From Goekera deserti (GTDB taxonomy: Bacteria; Actinomycetota; Actinomycetes; Mycobacteriales; Geodermatophilaceae), in NCBI RefSeq assembly GCF_010685995.1, contig NZ_JAAGWK010000028.1, positions 1 through 64,000 on the forward strand: DNA of 64,000 bases. Direction: 5' to 3'. Positions 24,109 to 32,661 of the stretch are shown in pieces. How positions within the stretch are numbered: position 1 is the stretch's first letter; every line of letters begins with the position of its first letter. Under the pieces are notes generated by a model. The model saw only the letters and a program-made list of their open reading frames with translations, ran no database searches and was not told where the DNA came from. The position numbers were made by a program, and so were the translations under genes.

Positions 24109-25236
24109 TCAGAGGGCGGCGGCGAGCGCGTCGAGCTGGTCGAGCGTGGCGTCGACGTGCGGCGACACCCGCAGCACCGGGCCGGTCATCTCCCCGGGCG
24201 CGCGTTCCGCCCCCGCCGCGGTGGTCACGATCCCGTGGTCGCCCAGCAGCCGCAACCGGGCCGCGGCGACGTCCACGCCGTCCGGTGGGCGCAGGGTGGT
24301 GATCGACGAGGGCTCGTCGGGTGCCTCCACGACCCGCCAGCCACCCCGGCCGTCCAGCACCTCCCGCGCGGTGCGGCCGAGGGCGGCCAGCCGGGCGCGC
24401 ACCCGGTCCGGGCCCGCGGCCAGGTGCTCCCCGACGGCCAGCACCAGCCCGACCCGGCCGGCCACGTGCCCCTCGTGCGACTCCAGCGCCAGCATCGGTG
24501 GCTCCGCCTTGTCCCACGCGGTCAGCGGCGGGTTCAACTGCTGGGCCACTGCGGGGCGCACCGCCAGCACCCCGACCCCGCGCGGCCCGGCCAGCCACTT
24601 GCGCGACGTCGAGTAGACGACGTCGGCGCCCACGTCGGTGTCCACGTGGCCCAGGGCCTGCGCGGCGTCGACCACCAGCGGCACCCCGGCGGCCCGGCAC
24701 ACCGCGGCCACCTGGGCGGCCGGCTGCACGGTGCCGCGGTGGCTGCCGACGTGCGTGAGGTGCACGAACGCCGGCGGGCGCCCGGCCAGCAGCCGCTCGA
24801 CGGCGCCGACGTCGACCCGGCCCGCGCCGTCTACCGGCAGGGACACCGGGTCCAGGCCGGCGGCGCGCAGCAGCATCAGGTTGGGGCCGTACTCGCCGGG
24901 CAGGCACGCCACCGTCGACCCAGCGGGCAGCCGCCAGGCGGCGAGCAGGACGGTGAGCGCCGAGGTGGCCGACTCGACGAACGCGACGTCCGCCGCGGCC
25001 ATGCCGACCAGCCCGCCGATCACCGAGCGGCCCTGCTGCAGCAGCGACCCCGCGGCGGCCTGGGCGACGTAGCCGCCGACCTCGGCCTCGTGCCGGGCGT
25101 GCGCGGCGGTGGCCTCCAGCACCCGCTCGGACTGCCGGCTGCAGGCGGCGCTGTCCAGGTGGTCACCGGCCTGCGGTGGACGGGCGGCGGCCCAGGAGTC
25201 GGCGAGGTCCTCGAACGGGAGGGGCGGGCCCGGCAT
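24109..25236 (-). CDS. egtE: ergothioneine PLP-dependent C-S lyase
   Basis: A 375-residue fold-type I PLP enzyme of the cysteine-desulfurase-like group, last of the egt operon. EgtE cleaves hercynylcysteine sulfoxide to ergothioneine. The PLP Lys is in YSTSRKWLAGPRG and the cofactor Asp in LVVDAAQALGH; HVGSHRGTV is also typical. The ATG start overlaps the egtD stop. Assignment to EgtE rather than a general desulfurase rests on operon position. Confidence 0.9.
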   Translation of the reverse strand: MPGPPLPFEDLADSWAAARPPQAGDHLDSAACSRQSERVLEATAAHARHEAEVGGYVAQAAAGSLLQQGRSVIGGLVGMAAADVAFVESATSALTVLLAAWRLPAGSTVACLPGEYGPNLMLLRAAGLDPVSLPVDGAGRVDVGAVERLLAGRPPAFVHLTHVGSHRGTVQPAAQVAAVCRAAGVPLVVDAAQALGHVDTDVGADVVYSTSRKWLAGPRGVGVLAVRPAVAQQLNPPLTAWDKAEPPMLALESHEGHVAGRVGLVLAVGEHLAAGPDRVRARLAALGRTAREVLDGRGGWRVVEAPDEPSSITTLRPPDGVDVAAARLRLLGDHGIVTTAAGAERAPGEMTGPVLRVSPHVDATLDQLDALAAAL

Positions 25237-26204
25237 CAGCCGGGCACCGACAGCGAGACCCCGAAGTCGCCGGCGGCGTCGGTCCACCAGTGCGTGGTGG
25301 TCAGGCCCGCGGCGGCCAGCTCGGCGGTGACGGTCTCCCGGCGGAACTTGGTCGACACCTCGGTGCGCAGCTCCTCCCCGGCCGCGAACGGCACCTCCAG
25401 GTCCAGCGCGGCCACGTGCACCACCTGGTCACGGGTCGAGCGCAGCCGCATCTCGATCCACTCCCGCTCGGCGTCCCAGCGGGCCACGTGCTCGAAGGCG
25501 TCCGGGTCGAAGTCGGCCTTGAGCTCGCGGTTGACCACACTGAGCACGTTGCGGTTGAACGCGGCGGTCACCCCGGCGGCGTCGTCGTAGGCGCGCACCA
25601 GCCGGCCGGGGTCCTTGACCAGGTCGGTGCCCAGCAGCACGGCATCCCCGGGCTGCAGGGTGGCGGCGAGCGCGGCGAGGAAGGCGGCCCGGGGGCCGGG
25701 CTCCAGGTTGCCGATCGTGGAGCCGAGGAACGCCACCAACCGCCGCCCGGCGCGCGGCAGCTCGCCCAGGTGCCGGGTGAAGTCACCGACCACCGCCTGC
25801 ACGACCACCCCGGGGTGCTCCTCGGTGATCGCGGCACCGGCCGCGCGCAGCACCGACGGGTCGACGTCGAAGGGCACGAACCGGCGCAGCGTGCCCGCCT
25901 GCGCCAGCGCGGTGAGCAGCAGCCGGGTCTTCTCCGAGGTGCCGCTGCCCAGCTCGACCAGGGTGTCCGCGCCCGAGGCGGCGGCGATCTCGCCGGCGTG
26001 GTCGGCCAGCACCTCCCGCTCGGCTCGGGTCGGGTAGTACTCCGGCAGCCGGGTGATCTCGTCGAACAGCTCGCTGCCGCGCTCGTCGTAGAACCAGGTC
26101 GGCGGCAGGGTCTTCGGTGTGGTGGTGAGACCGGCGAGCACGTCGGCGCGCAGGGCGGCCTCGGCGTCGTCGGGTCCGAGGTACGAGGTCAGTTCCACGG
26201 TCAT
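25236..26204 (-). CDS. egtD: L-histidine N-alpha-methyltransferase
   Basis: A 322-residue SAM-dependent methyltransferase that trimethylates histidine to hercynine, the first step of ergothioneine synthesis. [34 protein letters not shown], the SAM-binding [27 protein letters not shown], and [14 protein letters not shown] are conserved in the EgtD family. The 53 bp between egtC and egtD is the only real gap within the operon. Confidence 0.96.
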
Positions 26205-26257
26205 GCGGGCTCCTGTGCTCGGAGGGCGGGACGGATCGGGCGGCGCGGGCTGTCGGG

Positions 26258-26944
26258 TCAGAGGGGGGTCACGGCCGTGCCGTCGGGGGTGACCTCGACC
26301 AGGTGCCGGTCGGGGACGTCGACCCAGGCCGGGTCGTCGTCCCAGGGCTCGCTGGCCACGGCCGTGCCGGCCGGGGTGGTGAGCACCGAGAGGGTGTCAC
26401 CCCAGGTGGTGGCCAGCAGCCGGGTGCCGTCGGTGGCCAGCAGGTTCAGCCGGGCCGCGGGGTCGGCCGCACCCACCTCCCGGACGACGTCGCCCAGCAG
26501 GTCGGCGCCGCGGGCGAACACGTGCGCCGCCAGCAGGGCGCTGTCGCAGGTGGACTCGGCCGTGCGGGAGGCCGGCAGCACCGCCCGGTCGACCCGGCCG
26601 TTGTGCGACAGCAGCCAGCGGCCGTCGGTGAACGGCGCGGCCGCGCTCTCGTCGGCCGGCATGCCGACGGTGGCCGAGCGCACCGCGGCCAGCACGCAGC
26701 CGGAGCTGACCGCCGGCGCGACCGAGGCGAAGGACGCCGAGCTCCACAGCGGCCGGTCCGAGCGCCAGCGGGCGGGCTCGGTGCGGCCCTCGGCGTAGAA
26801 GCCGACGCCCCAGCCGTCGGCGTTGACCGTGCCGTGCCGCTGCCGCCGCGGCGCCCAGCTCTGCACCAGCAGCGACGACGGCGGGTCGAGCACCACCGAC
26901 GCCAGCGTGCGCGGCTGCCCGAGCCAGGCCACGTGCCGGCACAT
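26258..26944 (-). CDS. egtC: gamma-glutamyl-hercynylcysteine sulfoxide hydrolase
   Basis: A 228-residue class II glutamine-amidotransferase-type hydrolase that removes the gamma-glutamyl group. The N-terminal nucleophile is Cys2 in MCRHVAWLG, exposed after Met removal. [18 protein letters not shown] and LLSHNGRVD are the usual Ntn signatures. The ATG overlaps the egtB stop by 4 nt. Confidence 0.95.
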
Positions 26945-28248
26945 CAGGCGGACCAGGCCAGGCGCAGGCCGCTGAAGACCTGGCGGCGCATCGGGCGGTC
27001 CCAGTTGCGGAAGCTGGGCCGGGCCAGCGCCGACCCCACGGCCCAGGACGGGCCACGGAGCACCCGGTGGTCGCCGCCGAAGAACGGGGCCGAGTAGTCG
27101 GCGTAGAGCATCGGGGTGAAGCCCGGCCAGGCGGTGAACTCCGAGCTGGTCCACTCCCAGACGTCGCCGATCAGCTGCTCCACGCCGTAGGCGGAGGCGC
27201 CGGCGGGGTAGGCGCCCACCGGCGCGGGACGCAGCGCGGCGCCGTCGAGGTTGGCCAGGGCCGGGGTCGGCTCGGTGGAGCCCCAGGGCCAGCGGCGGCG
27301 CCGGCCGGTCCCCGGGTCCCAGGCGGCGGCCTTCTCCCACTCCACCTCGGTGGGCAGCCGGGCCCCGGGCTGCTGCTGGCCGTACCAGGCGGCGTAGGCC
27401 TCGGCCTCGAAGAACGTGACGTGCTGGACCGGCTCGTCCCCAGGCACGTCCTCCCGGACGCCGAAGCGCACCCGGCTGCCGTCGGGCAGCCAGCTCATCG
27501 GGCGCTCCAGGCCCGCGTCGCAGCGGTGCTGCCAGCCGCGGGTGGACCACCAGCGGGGCTGGTCGTAGCCGCCGTCGGCCAGGAACGCCGCGTACTCGGC
27601 GTTGGTCACCGGCACCCGGCCGATACGGAACGCGTCGACGTGGACGACGTGCGCCGGCCGCTCGTTGTCCAGGGAGAACGGCTCGTCCGCGGCGTCCACA
27701 CCGAGCACGAACCCGCCGGCCGGGACCAGCACCGACGTGCCCGCGACGCCGGGGCGGCCGGGCGGCAGCGGCGCGCCGGTGCCCAGCACGGGTGGGCCGC
27801 TGCGCAGCTGCACCGCCTGCAGCATCGTCTCGTCGTGCTGCTGCTCGTGGCCGGCCACCATGGCGAAGTCGAACGGGTCGTCCCCGGCGGCCGGGTCGAG
27901 GGTGTCCAGCCGGTCGAGCACCCGGCCGCGCACGTCGGCGCAGAACGCGCGCGCCTCGACCGGTGGCAGCAGCGGCAGCCGGGCGCGCACCGCGCGCGGG
28001 TGGGTGAAGGCGTCGTAGAGCTGCTCGACGTCCGGGGGCAGCAGCCCGGGCCGGGCCGGCTCGCCGCGGCGCAGCAGCCAGAGGTCCTCCTGCTGGCCGA
28101 TGTGCGCCAGGTCCCAGACCAGCGGGCTCATCAGCGGGTCGTGCTGGCGCAGCAGCTCCGGCTCGTCCAGGTCGGTGAGCCGCAGGGTGCGCTCCCGGGC
28201 CTCGGTCAGCTGGCGGGCGAGCAGCTCACGGGTGTCCGGCTCGGTCAT
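26944..28248 (-). CDS. egtB: hercynine oxygenase (sulfoxide synthase)
   Basis: A 434-residue non-heme iron enzyme that joins gamma-glutamylcysteine (or cysteine) to hercynine with oxygen. The DinB-like domain carries the iron ligands His49 ([11 protein letters not shown]) and His134/His138 (GHEQQHDE). The C-terminal formylglycine-synthase-like domain contains [34 protein letters not shown] and [17 protein letters not shown] precedes the ATG, which overlaps the egtA stop. Confidence 0.96.
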
Positions 28249-29495
28249 CGCTCCTCCTCGGGCAGGCGGGTGGCGCCGACGAGGGCGGCCTCGGCGCCGC
28301 GGGTACGGGCGGTGTGCAGCAGGTCGTCGCCGGGGCAGCGGCCCTGGTCGACCAGGCCGGCCAGGGCGCTGACCTCCGGGCGCAGCGCGGCGGGGGCGTG
28401 CCGCTCGGCGAGCTCCAGGCAGCTGCCGGCGGCGGCGGCCAGCCGCGGGTCGGCCAGGCCGCGGGCGGCGGCGACGTCCCACAGCCCGGACACCGGCTCG
28501 CAGGCGTCCGCGGCGGCGTCCGCGGCCCGCGAGTCGTCCAGCAGCGTCGCCACGACGGCGGCCAGCGCCGGCCACCACGGCTCCGGTGCGGCGTCGAGGT
28601 AGCGGATCTCCAGGAACCCGCGCAGCCGCACGGGCGGGAACAGCGTGGTCAGGTGCCGGTCCAGGTCGGCGACGGTGGGCCGGCGCCCGGCCAGGGGCAC
28701 CTCGCCGCGCACCCAGGCGGCGAACGGCGTGCGGTCGGTGACCGGCAGCGTCCCGTCGTCGCCGGCCACCAGCATCACCGGCGCGGCCAGCGCGTACTCC
28801 GCCCACTCGGTGGCCGGGTCGCGGCGGCCCAGCAGCGGGCCGCAGCGGGCCTGGTCCAGGTCGCCCCACACCTGCTGGCGGCTGGACCGCCACCCGGTCT
28901 CCGCGCCGGCCAGCAGCGGCGAGCAGGCCGAGACGGCCACCAGCACCGGGCCCAGCCGGTGCGTCCGCTGCACCCGCTCGGTCCAGCCGGCTTCCGGGCC
29001 CGCCTCCAGGTTGACCTGCAGCGACGCGGTCGAGGTCATCATCGCCGCGCCCGCGGCCGGGCAGTGCACGGCAGCGAAGTGCGCCTCCATCGCCACGTAC
29101 CGCCCGCCGGGGCTGACCCGGCGGGCGGGCCGGAGCGGGTCGGTGCCGACCGGGGCCAGGCCGAGCCGGGCGGCGGCGAGCGCGGTGCGCACCACCGCGG
29201 TGTCCGCCCGCAGCGCGGCGACCGCGGCGGGCGCGTCGGCCAGCGGCGGGCCGGAGAGCTCGACCTGGCCGCCGGGCTCCAGCGTCACCCGGCTGCCCCC
29301 GGGCAGCGCCGGCAGCGCGTCGACGACGCCGGTGAGCCGGTCCCAGCCCACCCGCTCGGCCGGGGCGGTCAGGTCGACGAGGTGCGCCTCCAGCTCCAGG
29401 CCCACCGGGCCCGGGACGGTGTCGCGCAGCGCGCCGGTCGCGACGTGCTCGAGCGCGCCGTCGAGGTCGAGCGTTCGGGACGGGCTGGACAGCAT
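28245..29495 (-). CDS. egtA: glutamate-cysteine ligase of ergothioneine synthesis
   Basis: A 416-residue GCS2-type ligase that makes gamma-glutamylcysteine. [38 protein letters not shown] and [14 protein letters not shown] are the expected ATP/glutamate-binding motifs. The ATG at 29495 was chosen because GGAGGGGGC lies just upstream; the longer frame to 29597 is a Pro/Arg-rich non-family leader. It is the first gene of egtABCDE. The 130 bp upstream, before the anti-sigma gene on the same strand, must hold the operon promoter if it has its own. Confidence 0.94.
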
Positions 29496-29625: not shown

Positions 29626-30417
29626 TCAGAGCTCGCCGCGGGCGATGGAGAACGCGGAGTGCGCGGGGTCGCCGTCCACCGCCTCCCGGGACACGTCCAC
29701 GGTGCGGAACACCGAGGTGTCCACGCCGTCCGGCACGGGCAGCGCCGTCTGCCCGCCGTCGAGCACGCCGAGGGCGATCATCCGCTGGCTGGCCGGGTCC
29801 AGCAGCCACACCTCGAAGTAGTCGCCGCCGGTCGGTCGGACCGTCAGCCGGACGTCGAGCACCCTCGACTCGTCGTCCCGCACCCGCAGCACGGCCTCGC
29901 CGGAGGCGTCCGAGCCGCCGTAGGGCGACAGCCCCGCCGCGGCGACGGTCACCGCGTCGTCCGAGCGGCCGACGAGTGCCGCCCCGGAGGCACCCACCAC
30001 GATCCCGACGGCCAGCGACGCCGCGACCGCGGCCAGCCACCGGCGGCGGGCGCGACGGCGCAGGGCCAGCTCGTCCACCGGGGGGTCGGCGGGCGGGCGG
30101 GGCGCTGCGGCGGTGGGGGCCGGCGGCGGGGGGGCTCCCGGGGCGCCACCGGCGGCGGCCGACGCGGCCAGCACCTCCGGCCGGGGGGTCGCCGAGACGC
30201 CGGTGGCGGCGGCGATCGCCGACCAGACGGCCGGCGGCGGCAGCACCGCCGGCGCGGTCGCGGGCCGGGGCAGCGCCGTCAGGGTGTCCACGCCGCGGCG
30301 CAGCGAGCCCACCTCGGCCGAGCAGGCACCGCAGGAGGCCAGGTGCGCGTCCTGGTCGGGCGTCAGCGGCTCCGACAGGGCCGCCAACGCCAGCTCCTCA
30401 CGAGTGCAGTGCTGCAC
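29626..30417 (-). CDS. RskA-like zinc anti-sigma factor
   Basis: A 263-residue membrane anti-sigma factor. A ZAS-type motif at the N-terminus (Cys near position 4, then HLASCGAC near 25) binds the partner sigma factor. A long Pro/Ala-rich linker leads to one membrane helix (WLAAVAASLAVGIVVGASGAALV), and an extracytoplasmic RskA-type domain contains GDYFEVWLLDPASQRMIALGVLDG. GTG at 30417 was chosen because GGAGG lies 6 nt upstream. It overlaps the sigma gene by 20 nt, the classic arrangement for a cognate pair. Release probably occurs by regulated proteolysis, as for other RskA proteins. Confidence 0.88.
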   Translation of the reverse strand: MQHCTREELALAALSEPLTPDQDAHLASCGACSAEVGSLRRGVDTLTALPRPATAPAVLPPPAVWSAIAAATGVSATPRPEVLAASAAAGGAPGAPPPPAPTAAAPRPPADPPVDELALRRRARRRWLAAVAASLAVGIVVGASGAALVGRSDDAVTVAAAGLSPYGGSDASGEAVLRVRDDESRVLDVRLTVRPTGGDYFEVWLLDPASQRMIALGVLDGGQTALPVPDGVDTSVFRTVDVSREAVDGDPAHSAFSIARGEL

Positions 30418-31027
30418 CGTCGACCTCCAATCGGCTCCGCAGGCGTTCGAGGGAACGGCGGATGTGGGACTTGACCGTGCCGAGCGGGATCCCGGTGCGC
30501 TCGGCGATCTGCGCATGGGTCAGGTCCTCGAAGAACGCCAGCTCCAGGATGCCCCGCTGCGGTTGGCCCAGCCGTTCCAGCTCGGCGATCACCAGCACGC
30601 GGTCGGTCACCGCGGTGTCCAGCCCGGCGTCGACGTCGCCGGTGGGTTGCAGGCGGGCCGAGCTGAGGGCGGCGTCGGACTCCCGGCGCTGCCGCTCCCG
30701 GCGCACCCAGGCGTCGGCGATCCGGTGCCGGCAGATGCCCACCAGCCAGGCGGGCAGCGGGCCGGCGTCGGGCCGGTAGCCGGCCCGCCCGTTCCACGCC
30801 GACACGAAGCTCTGCTGGAGCACGTCCTCGGCGTCCGGCCCGGCGCCCAGCGCCCGCACCGCCAGCCCGTACAGCTGCGGGCCCCACCGCTCGTAGGCCC
30901 AGGCCAGGGCGCGCTCGTCGCCGGCGGCGAACCTGCGGGCGACCTCCCCGTCGTCCGGCTCGGGCGGGTGCGGCAGCCCGGTCACCGCGTTGCCCGCCAC
31001 GAGGGGCACGCTATGCGCCACGGCCAC
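30398..31027 (-). CDS. ECF RNA polymerase sigma factor
   Basis: A 209-residue group 4 sigma factor. Region 2 is recognisable in RRFAAGDERALAWAYERWGPQLYGLAVRALGAGPDAEDVLQQSFVSAWNG, and region 4 in LEFFEDLTHAQ-like sequence with the helix-turn-helix TGIPLGTVKSHIRRSLERLRSRL. It begins with GTG at 31027 and is followed by its overlapping anti-sigma gene. It probably drives the sortase/DUF4397 genes just upstream on the same strand as well as its own operon; that is inference from position. Confidence 0.93.
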   Translation of the reverse strand: MAVAHSVPLVAGNAVTGLPHPPEPDDGEVARRFAAGDERALAWAYERWGPQLYGLAVRALGAGPDAEDVLQQSFVSAWNGRAGYRPDAGPLPAWLVGICRHRIADAWVRRERQRRESDAALSSARLQPTGDVDAGLDTAVTDRVLVIAELERLGQPQRGILELAFFEDLTHAQIAERTGIPLGTVKSHIRRSLERLRSRLEVDGAALHS

Positions 31028-31052
31028 GGCCGCACACCCCCTGCCCCACGGC

Positions 31053-31724
31053 TCACGCCGGTTCTGCGACGACGACGACGTTGTCCCGGTAGCTGCCCGT
31101 GTCGGGCTGGAACGGCCCGCCGCAGGTGATCAGCACCAGGCGCGGGGGCCCGTCCCGGGCGAAGAGCTGGTCGCGGGGCAGCTCCTGCTTCACGAACTCC
31201 TGGCGGGCCACCACCCGCCACCGGGTGGTGGCGCCGTCGGCGGCGGTGACGGTCACCTCGTCGCCGACCTCGGTCGACCGCACCGGGGCCATCGCGCCCA
31301 GGCCGTCGGTCGCGCTGTCGACGTGCCCGGCGAGCACCGCCGACCCGGGCTGGCCGGGGGCGGGCCCGAACCGGTACCAGCCGACCCGGTCGACATCGCG
31401 CGGGACGCTCATCGAGCCGTCGGGCTCGACGCCCACCGGGTCCACGGCGGCGTCCACGCCCACCCCGGGGACCGACAGGCCCACCGGGGCGGGCACCTCC
31501 ACCGGCGGGGTCGGGGACGCGTCCCGCACCGGCACCGGCGGCGGTGCTTGCCCCGCCGGGCCGGACGGGGGCGCCGGGTCCAGGACGGGTGCCGGGGCGG
31601 GGCTGTCGAGCACCTGCTCGACCGGGGGGCCCGCCGCCGCCGGCGGCCTGCTCAGCGCCCAGACGGCCGGTGTCCCGACGGCCAGGGCGAGACCGACCAC
31701 GAGCGTGGCGGCGGCGGACCTCAC
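31053..31724 (-). CDS. class F sortase
   Basis: A 223-residue secreted/membrane-anchored transpeptidase. An N-terminal hydrophobic anchor (AAATLVVGLALAVGTPAVWAL) is followed by a Pro/Ala-rich linker. The sortase beta-barrel carries the catalytic His in LAGHVDS, Cys in LITCGG and Arg in SYRDNVVVV. The short domain without a C-terminal anchor and the PGVGVDAAVDPVGVEPDGSMSVP start fit class F. GGAGGGA lies 6 nt before the GTG. It is adjacent to a secreted DUF4397 protein with a C-terminal membrane tail, its likely substrate. Confidence 0.93.
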   Translation of the reverse strand: MRSAAATLVVGLALAVGTPAVWALSRPPAAAGPPVEQVLDSPAPAPVLDPAPPSGPAGQAPPPVPVRDASPTPPVEVPAPVGLSVPGVGVDAAVDPVGVEPDGSMSVPRDVDRVGWYRFGPAPGQPGSAVLAGHVDSATDGLGAMAPVRSTEVGDEVTVTAADGATTRWRVVARQEFVKQELPRDQLFARDGPPRLVLITCGGPFQPDTGSYRDNVVVVAEPA

Positions 31725-31746
31725 GGGCGTCCCTCCGGTGACCGGG

Positions 31747-32565
31747 TCAGCCGCGCGCGGCCACGAGCCGGCGGCCGGCGAGCCCGGCGACGGCGACGCC
31801 GCCCAGGGTCAGCGCCACCAGCGGCACCGGGAGACCGCCGTCGTCGGCAGCGCCGCCCAGGCCGCTGTCCACGCCGGACGGCGAGGAGTGCCCACCGGAG
31901 ATCGTCTGCACGGCCAGCTGGTAGCCGGCGTCAGCCGAGCCCCAGGCGTAGACGATCGTCGAGGTGCCCTCCCGCAGGGTCAGGTCGGCCGGGCCGATCG
32001 CCACGGTGCCGGTGCCGGCCAGCACCACGTCGGCGGAGACGGTGCCGGCCCCGGTGACCAGGCTGGCCTCCTCCGGGTTCACCAGCCCGGGCACGATGAC
32101 CGCCCCGTTCGCCCGGACGTCGACGGCCGGTGCCGCCGCGGTGTGCCGGACGGTCACCCGGGCCTGGCCGGCCGGGACGGCCGAGGTGTCGTTGACGAAC
32201 GGCGTCAGCACCGGTGCCCCGGCCTCGGTGAGGTGGGCGACGACGGTCGCGTTCGCGCCGGCCGGGACGGCGACGTCCTGGGCGGCGGCGGCCGGCTGGG
32301 TGGTCGCCGGGTCGGAACCGGCGGGGTAGATCGCCAGGTCGTAGGAGCCGGCCGGCAGCGTGAGCGGGTCGGTCAGGGTGCCCGGCTGGAAGTCCGGGAT
32401 CAGCTCGTCGCCGTTCACGTACACGTCCACCGGTACCCCGGGGACGGCGTGCAGGACCGAGACGGTCGCGTCGCCCTCGGCGGCCAGGGCGGGGGTGGTG
32501 CCCAGGCCCAGCACGAGGGCGCCTGCGGTGCCGGCGGTGAGGGCGAGAGCGCGGGTGGTGCGCAT
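31747..32565 (-). CDS. secreted DUF4397 protein with C-terminal anchor
   Basis: A 272-residue exported protein with two repeated DUF4397 beta-sandwich units: VSVLHAVPGVPVDVYVNGD in the first and VTVRHTAAAPAVDVRANG in the second. The signal peptide ends near PALAAEG. The C-terminus is a Gly/Asp-rich spacer, a GGLPVPLVALTLGG segment that starts a membrane helix, and a short RRLVAARG tail. This resembles a sortase signal but no standard LPXTG or LAXTG is present. GGAAGGA precedes the ATG at 32565. It lies directly upstream of the class F sortase on the same strand. Its function is unknown beyond being a likely surface protein. Confidence 0.87.
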   Translation of the reverse strand: MRTTRALALTAGTAGALVLGLGTTPALAAEGDATVSVLHAVPGVPVDVYVNGDELIPDFQPGTLTDPLTLPAGSYDLAIYPAGSDPATTQPAAAAQDVAVPAGANATVVAHLTEAGAPVLTPFVNDTSAVPAGQARVTVRHTAAAPAVDVRANGAVIVPGLVNPEEASLVTGAGTVSADVVLAGTGTVAIGPADLTLREGTSTIVYAWGSADAGYQLAVQTISGGHSSPSGVDSGLGGAADDGGLPVPLVALTLGGVAVAGLAGRRLVAARG

Positions 32566-32661
32566 GGGGCGGTCCTTCCTCGGAGGGGGTGCTTCACCCC
32601 TCCTTCCGCCGGAGGGCGCCGGCTGGATGCACCCCGGTCCGACCTCCACCCGCGGCGCCGG

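Follow-up and report, generated by a model that had tools for sequence, protein, structure and literature searches.

Pairing of a DUF4397 surface protein with a class F-like sortase in Goekera deserti: a candidate noncanonical sorting signal under a predicted SigK-type promoter

How could a secreted protein be attached to the cell surface when its gene stands beside a sortase gene and its tail carries no LPXTG? This question is raised by a four-gene operon in the first 64,000 nucleotides of Goekera deserti contig NZ_JAAGWK010000028.1 (hereafter the window). In order, and all on the minus strand, the operon encodes a DUF4397 surface protein of 272 aa (31747..32565; Pfam PF14344, 7.7e-32), a class F-like sortase of 223 aa with an N-terminal signal anchor (31053..31724; Pfam Sortase, 8.8e-18), a SigK/ECF19-like extracytoplasmic function (ECF) sigma factor (30398..31027; Pfam Sigma70 regions 2 and 4) and an RskA-like membrane anti-sigma factor (29626..30417; Pfam RskA_C, 2.8e-11). 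The genes are separated by 22 nt and then 25 nt, and the sigma and anti-sigma genes overlap by 20 nt. Reading frames and Pfam matches confirm the gene order, strand and coordinates given in an earlier note on this DNA, and the tight module recurs across actinomycete families.

Our best reading is that of a sigma-driven operon for a secreted surface protein together with its own anchoring enzyme, present in many soil and stone-dwelling actinobacteria. Specifically, it is likely that the genes form an autoregulated SigK-type switch producing a surface protein and a dedicated sortase with a noncanonical signal. The membrane-bound anti-sigma factor would hold the sigma factor until an envelope or oxidative signal frees it; the freed sigma factor would read TGCATCC-N17-GGAAG upstream of the DUF4397 gene and raise expression of the whole operon, its own gene included. 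The exported DUF4397 protein would pause in the membrane through the helix at its C terminus and the RR pair behind it, and the neighbour-encoded sortase could then cut within a juxtamembrane P-x-G-V-x-[TASG]-G, most likely at S|G between residues 234 and 235, and transfer the protein to the cell wall.

The DUF4397 tail and its partner sortases

The DUF4397 protein begins with a signal peptide, predicted by eye at about residues 1-29, followed in the AlphaFold2 model (mean predicted local distance difference test score, pLDDT, 81) by two predicted beta-sandwich domains at residues 32-223. In fold they come closest to the extracellular domains of the mammalian peptide transporters PepT1 and PepT2, with template modelling scores near 0.5, a similarity that fits a binding or adhesion part, though it does not name a ligand. 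Residues 227-246 fall below pLDDT 50 and form a predicted disordered linker containing PSGVDSGLGG (residues 229-238; 31852..31881, minus strand). A hydrophobic helix follows at residues 248-271 (31753..31824, minus strand; assigned by DSSP on the model, hydropathy maximum 1.99), and then the basic end GRRLVAARG with its RR pair. This order is the layout of a sorting signal, and a motif-bearing stretch of the tail, including V232 and G235, reads SSPSGVDSGLGG. The protein contains no LPXTG, and PSGVDSGLGG is no known pentapeptide; its candidacy as the signal is based on aligned conservation. The earlier note had rightly observed both the missing LPXTG and a GGLPVPL at the helix border; PSGVDSGLGG begins 14 residues ahead of that string and ends four residues before it.

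The comparison drew on 20 loci fetched from the family, a further 60 DUF4397 loci spread over the class, and 20 class F loci that have no DUF4397 gene. Together with the window protein and two paralogues from its own genome, this gave 83 DUF4397 proteins, 78 of which have a sortase within the fetched stretch. Sortase-linked tails carry P-x(1,2)-G-V-x-[TASG]-G-x-x-G, then a helix and a basic end, and motif and helix occur together in 72 of the 78. Across an alignment of 33 sequences P229 and V232 are invariant, with G231 and G235 conserved in at least 90%. Among 22 diverse DUF4397 proteins, with a mean column identity of 27%, invariance is confined to V46, V48, V232, G235 and R266, so that three of the five positions belong to the motif and the basic end. 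A second set comprised 80 named loci, 72 being new relative to the first, and was scored with the motif pattern framed on the first set; the new loci have a sortase in 68 cases, a sigma gene in 57, the motif in 66 and the promoter in 42. LPxTG or LAxTG was found in 1 of 83 and in 1 of 82 DUF4397 tails, and both occurrences are taken as chance. The earlier note had made its proposal depend on the C-terminal region being conserved among sortase-linked DUF4397 proteins, and conserved it is. In one locus the predicted pairing takes the form of a fusion: a single reading frame of 575 aa (L185:3286-5013, minus strand) joins DUF4397 through PTGPVRTG and a helix to a sortase domain.

The association extends beyond DUF4397. 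The G. deserti genome encodes three DUF4397 proteins, every one beside a sortase, whose tails have in common P-x-[GS]-(G)-V-[DE]-[TS]-G, followed by a helix and a basic end (PEGGVETGGGS and PVGGVETGAGG in the two other proteins). Its five class F-type sortases each have one motif-bearing neighbour, the remaining two partners being a DUF4331 protein that carries PTGGVDTGAGG and a protein of 137 aa that carries PVGGVAAGDGS and matches Excalibur weakly; a sixth sortase, a poor model match taken as class E, had no motif-bearing neighbour in the scan. At class F loci without DUF4397, an adjacent same-strand protein carries the sister motif P-x-G-G-V-x-T-G in 17 of 22 cases, and the motif is found in 18 of 76 adjacent same-strand open reading frames versus 4 of 363 distant ones. 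A narrower first pattern, widened after the Streptomyces forms had been seen, gave 11 of 22 loci, with 12/76 adjacent versus 2/363 distant frames. Since the cargoes at these loci are unrelated (DUF4331, ice-binding-like, CHRD and others without a family match), the motif follows the sortase and not the cargo.

The earlier assignment of the window sortase to class F stands as to the best NCBIfam model, NF033748, and not as to membership, the score of 134.6 bits lying under the curated cut-off of 166. Five other window-type sortases score 113-126 bits, and five from the other half of the sortase tree 160-189. The enzyme is called class F-like on account of this sub-threshold score together with its conserved His/Cys pair, Asn in place of Arg and sortase fold. 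Catalytic H134 and C201, along with N215 at the position where Arg is usual, are invariant in 37 sequences, and the Arg-to-Asn replacement is reported for actinobacterial class F sortases in PMC6998099. The structural model (mean pLDDT 89.5) retrieved sortases only among all 50 listed PDB matches, including classes A, C and E, while a sequence search of solved structures with the same protein gave no match at E 0.001. A tree of 101 sortase domains separates 56 window-type rows from 45 others with a Shimodaira-Hasegawa-like approximate likelihood ratio (SH-aLRT) support of 99, the measure used here in place of bootstrap, on as few as 147 columns. The motif form (P-x-x-V versus P-x-G-G-V) changes once on this tree. 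Judged by their sequences, two sortase subfamilies thus match two motif forms, P-x-G-V-x-x-G-x-x-G in the window type and P-x-G-G-V-x-T-G in the other.

The predicted switch and the genomic surroundings

The anti-sigma gene adjoins the ECF sigma gene, and its product matches PF10099 (RskA_C) with 44.2 bits against a cut-off of 29.4. HLASCGAC at residue 25 conforms to H-x3-C-x2-C, and one membrane helix is visible by eye. The sigma factor, with a single Cys at position 99, scores 102.7 bits against the NCBIfam SigK model NF007228, below its cut-off of 226. A predicted SigK-type promoter, TGCATCC-N17-GGAAG, lies at 32603..32631 on the minus strand, 37 nt 5' of the DUF4397 start codon. Its -35 box contains CATCC, as does the Mycobacterium tuberculosis SigK consensus.

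At most sigma-linked loci CATCC-N18-GAA precedes the DUF4397 domain by about 100-130 nt. The spacing of 18 occurs in 48 of the 80 named loci, as against 0-3 at every other spacing from 10 to 26, and a stretch within the genes gave none at any spacing. Sister-type DUF4397 genes unlinked to sigma lack CATCC-N18-GAA and show chance-like matches at other spacings. In 92 family genomes the strict pattern TGCATCC-N17-GGAAG yields 121 sites, versus 9 for a reversed-pattern control, and it is found in 66 of 69 genomes with a sigma orthologue versus 6 of 23 without. Four genomes (G305, G351, G374 and G376) have no orthologous DUF4397 gene, and by coordinates the site there stands directly upstream of the sigma gene. 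The control by the ECF factor proposed in the earlier note is therefore borne out at the level of sequence, by a putative promoter that precedes DUF4397 specifically at sigma-linked loci. In the G. deserti genome itself TGCATCC-N18-GAA has two matches, the operon and one chance-like; the second strict match (C19) and the C48 match were put down to chance, their contexts being unrelated.

Some Geodermatophilaceae relatives have the same site before genes for polyprenyl diphosphate synthase (L320, L329, L331, L333, L342, L343), dxs (L334-L336, L338, L339, L344, L348), a lycopene cyclase domain gene (L321, L323, L324, L326, L341) and ferrochelatase (L328, L330); family models were applied to representatives of each group, and the others were assigned by eye. 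From the -35 element to the lycopene cyclase and ferrochelatase start codons the distance is 36-37 nt, which would suit a leaderless transcript. The sigma regulon of Geodermatophilaceae may thus include an arm for isoprenoids, carotenoids and heme. A short query found no lycopene cyclase in the G. deserti genome, and the possible carotenoid link is drawn from its relatives.

The G. deserti assembly comprises 4.84 Mb in 61 contigs, with Klenkia, Modestobacter, Geodermatophilus and Blastococcus as named close relatives. Upstream, the operon is flanked by a gene for a SpoIIE-type phosphatase with GAF domains (Pfam). Ergothioneine genes lie directly downstream, at 25236-29495 of the window (egtA by Pfam GCS2, the others by eye); in 9 of 20 family loci relatives of egtA, egtB and egtD likewise adjoin the module, but upstream of DUF4397. 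Tandem duplicates of the DUF4397 gene occur within the module at locus L223 and in genomes G301, G311, G319 and G373. At L166:4270-5607 (minus strand) a longer protein with four DUF4397 stretches adjoins sigma and anti-sigma genes, with no sortase, motif or helix.

Alternative readings and points of doubt

The tail also admits an account in which the helix is a permanent anchor, P-x-G-V-x-x-G only an inherited flexible linker, and the sortase acts on something else. The predicted disorder and Gly/Ser-rich composition of the stretch would suit such a linker, and the homology of DUF4397 proteins means that shared residues could be due to descent. Yet cargo families unrelated to one another bear the same motif in the same place beside class F sortases, V232 and G235 are invariant despite the low overall identity, and both motif and helix are missing from L166 and L187, two DUF4397 proteins that have no sortase beside them. 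Permanent anchoring, and with it the helix-retained attachment offered as an option in the earlier note, is accordingly unlikely. Far less credible is GGLPVPL as the recognition motif: a related border, [LFVMI]P-x-[PV], recurs in 17 of 21 family sequences, but in 0 of 62 DUF4397 proteins outside the family, and exact GLPVPL occurs in two open reading frames only. The string was rejected as a motif and is better regarded as a lineage-specific start of the C-terminal helix. What endures of the earlier suggestion of an unusual class F recognition motif is a conserved noncanonical motif for a class F-like sortase, PSGVDSGLGG, which that suggestion had overlooked. Regulation raises a comparable doubt, for the DUF4397 promoter could be read by a different ECF factor with the same -35 element, the linked sigma factor having other targets. 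Sites before polyprenyl synthase and dxs indeed persist in G355 and G363, where no sigma orthologue was found. The site nevertheless tracks sigma across genomes, lies right at the sigma gene in genomes that have no orthologous DUF4397 gene and is missing from sister-type DUF4397 genes unlinked to sigma; a different reader is improbable.

Several observations weigh against the preferred reading of a SigK-type switch with a dedicated sortase. The correlation of site with sigma is confounded by phylogeny, and G355 and G363 retain sites while lacking sigma. Just five DUF4397 proteins have no sortase in the fetched stretch, some of them at contig ends, and two (L129, L148) possess the tail while three (L151, L166, L187) do not (Fisher p 0.008). 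The six sortase-linked exceptions of the first set include, besides the fused L185, four proteins with the motif and no hydrophobic helix in the last 50 residues (L143, L147, L154, L169) and one with a degenerate tail (L150); the pattern is absent from L150 and from L250, L254, L255, L261, L266 and L268. The patterns were framed after the first loci had been seen, and the later set, being homologous, is not independent. The loose motif pattern also matches 10% of shuffled tails, so weight is placed on aligned conservation, use by unrelated cargoes and fixed place. The window copy reads GVDSG versus GVPGG in most of its family, and a Gly at P1 sets the signal apart from those of other sortases. 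Finally, a quadruple class F deletion in Actinoplanes missouriensis had no visible phenotype, according to PMC13251363.

Taken together, these results lead us to favour, on balance, the broader view that actinobacterial class F and class F-like sortases serve one-enzyme, one-substrate display. The signal would be P-x(1,2)-G-V-x-[TASG]-G and not LPXTG, the two subfamilies would match its two spacings, and the window type would be controlled by an autoregulated SigK-type switch whose reach, in some relatives, extends to isoprenoid and carotenoid genes.

Significance and relation to known systems

Among actinobacteria class F sortases are common: a match to the class F model at E 0.001 or better was found in 215 of 296 genomes, and 124 exceed the cut-off. 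Their roles are called unknown in a 2026 study (PMC13251363). A conserved noncanonical tail shows where the missing partners of this poorly understood class can be sought; a defined signal would supply named substrate candidates, make the enzymes testable with peptides and offer a possible new ligation specificity, while the operon would tie a SigK-type switch to surface display. A literature search with subscription journals mostly outside its scope returned no paper pairing DUF4397 or ECF19 with a sortase, and none on a sortase with GGVxTG-type strings.

The closest enzymes are the class F sortases of NF033748, which the window sortase resembles in best family match, sortase fold, His-Cys pair and Asn for Arg. 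The window type differs in its scores (113-135 bits for the six scored, below 166), its separate half of the tree and linked substrates with P-x-G-V-x-x-G instead of LPXTG, the motif that Cutibacterium acnes SrtF is reported to use in PMC13257024. Class E sortases with LAXTG, such as Streptomyces SrtE, are likewise actinobacterial, act on secreted tail-anchored substrates and have structures among the fold matches, but constitute a different enzyme group, and their type of signal is virtually absent from DUF4397 tails. Compared by their description in PMC13251363, the Actinoplanes missouriensis proteins AMIS_11010 and AMIS_36440, encoded beside srtF1 and srtF4, are like the window protein in having a signal peptide, a helix at the C terminus and a basic end; according to that study both may be sortase substrates, but it set them aside because no known pentapeptide was found. 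On the regulatory side, the counterpart is the SigK-RskA system of Mycobacterium tuberculosis (MPT70, MPT83), with which the window shares an ECF sigma factor and RskA_C anti-sigma factor, a surface-protein target and, as predicted here, autoregulation. SigK is described with two conserved cysteines in PMC7509140, whereas the window sigma factor has one, and its predicted target is a DUF4397 protein together with a sortase.

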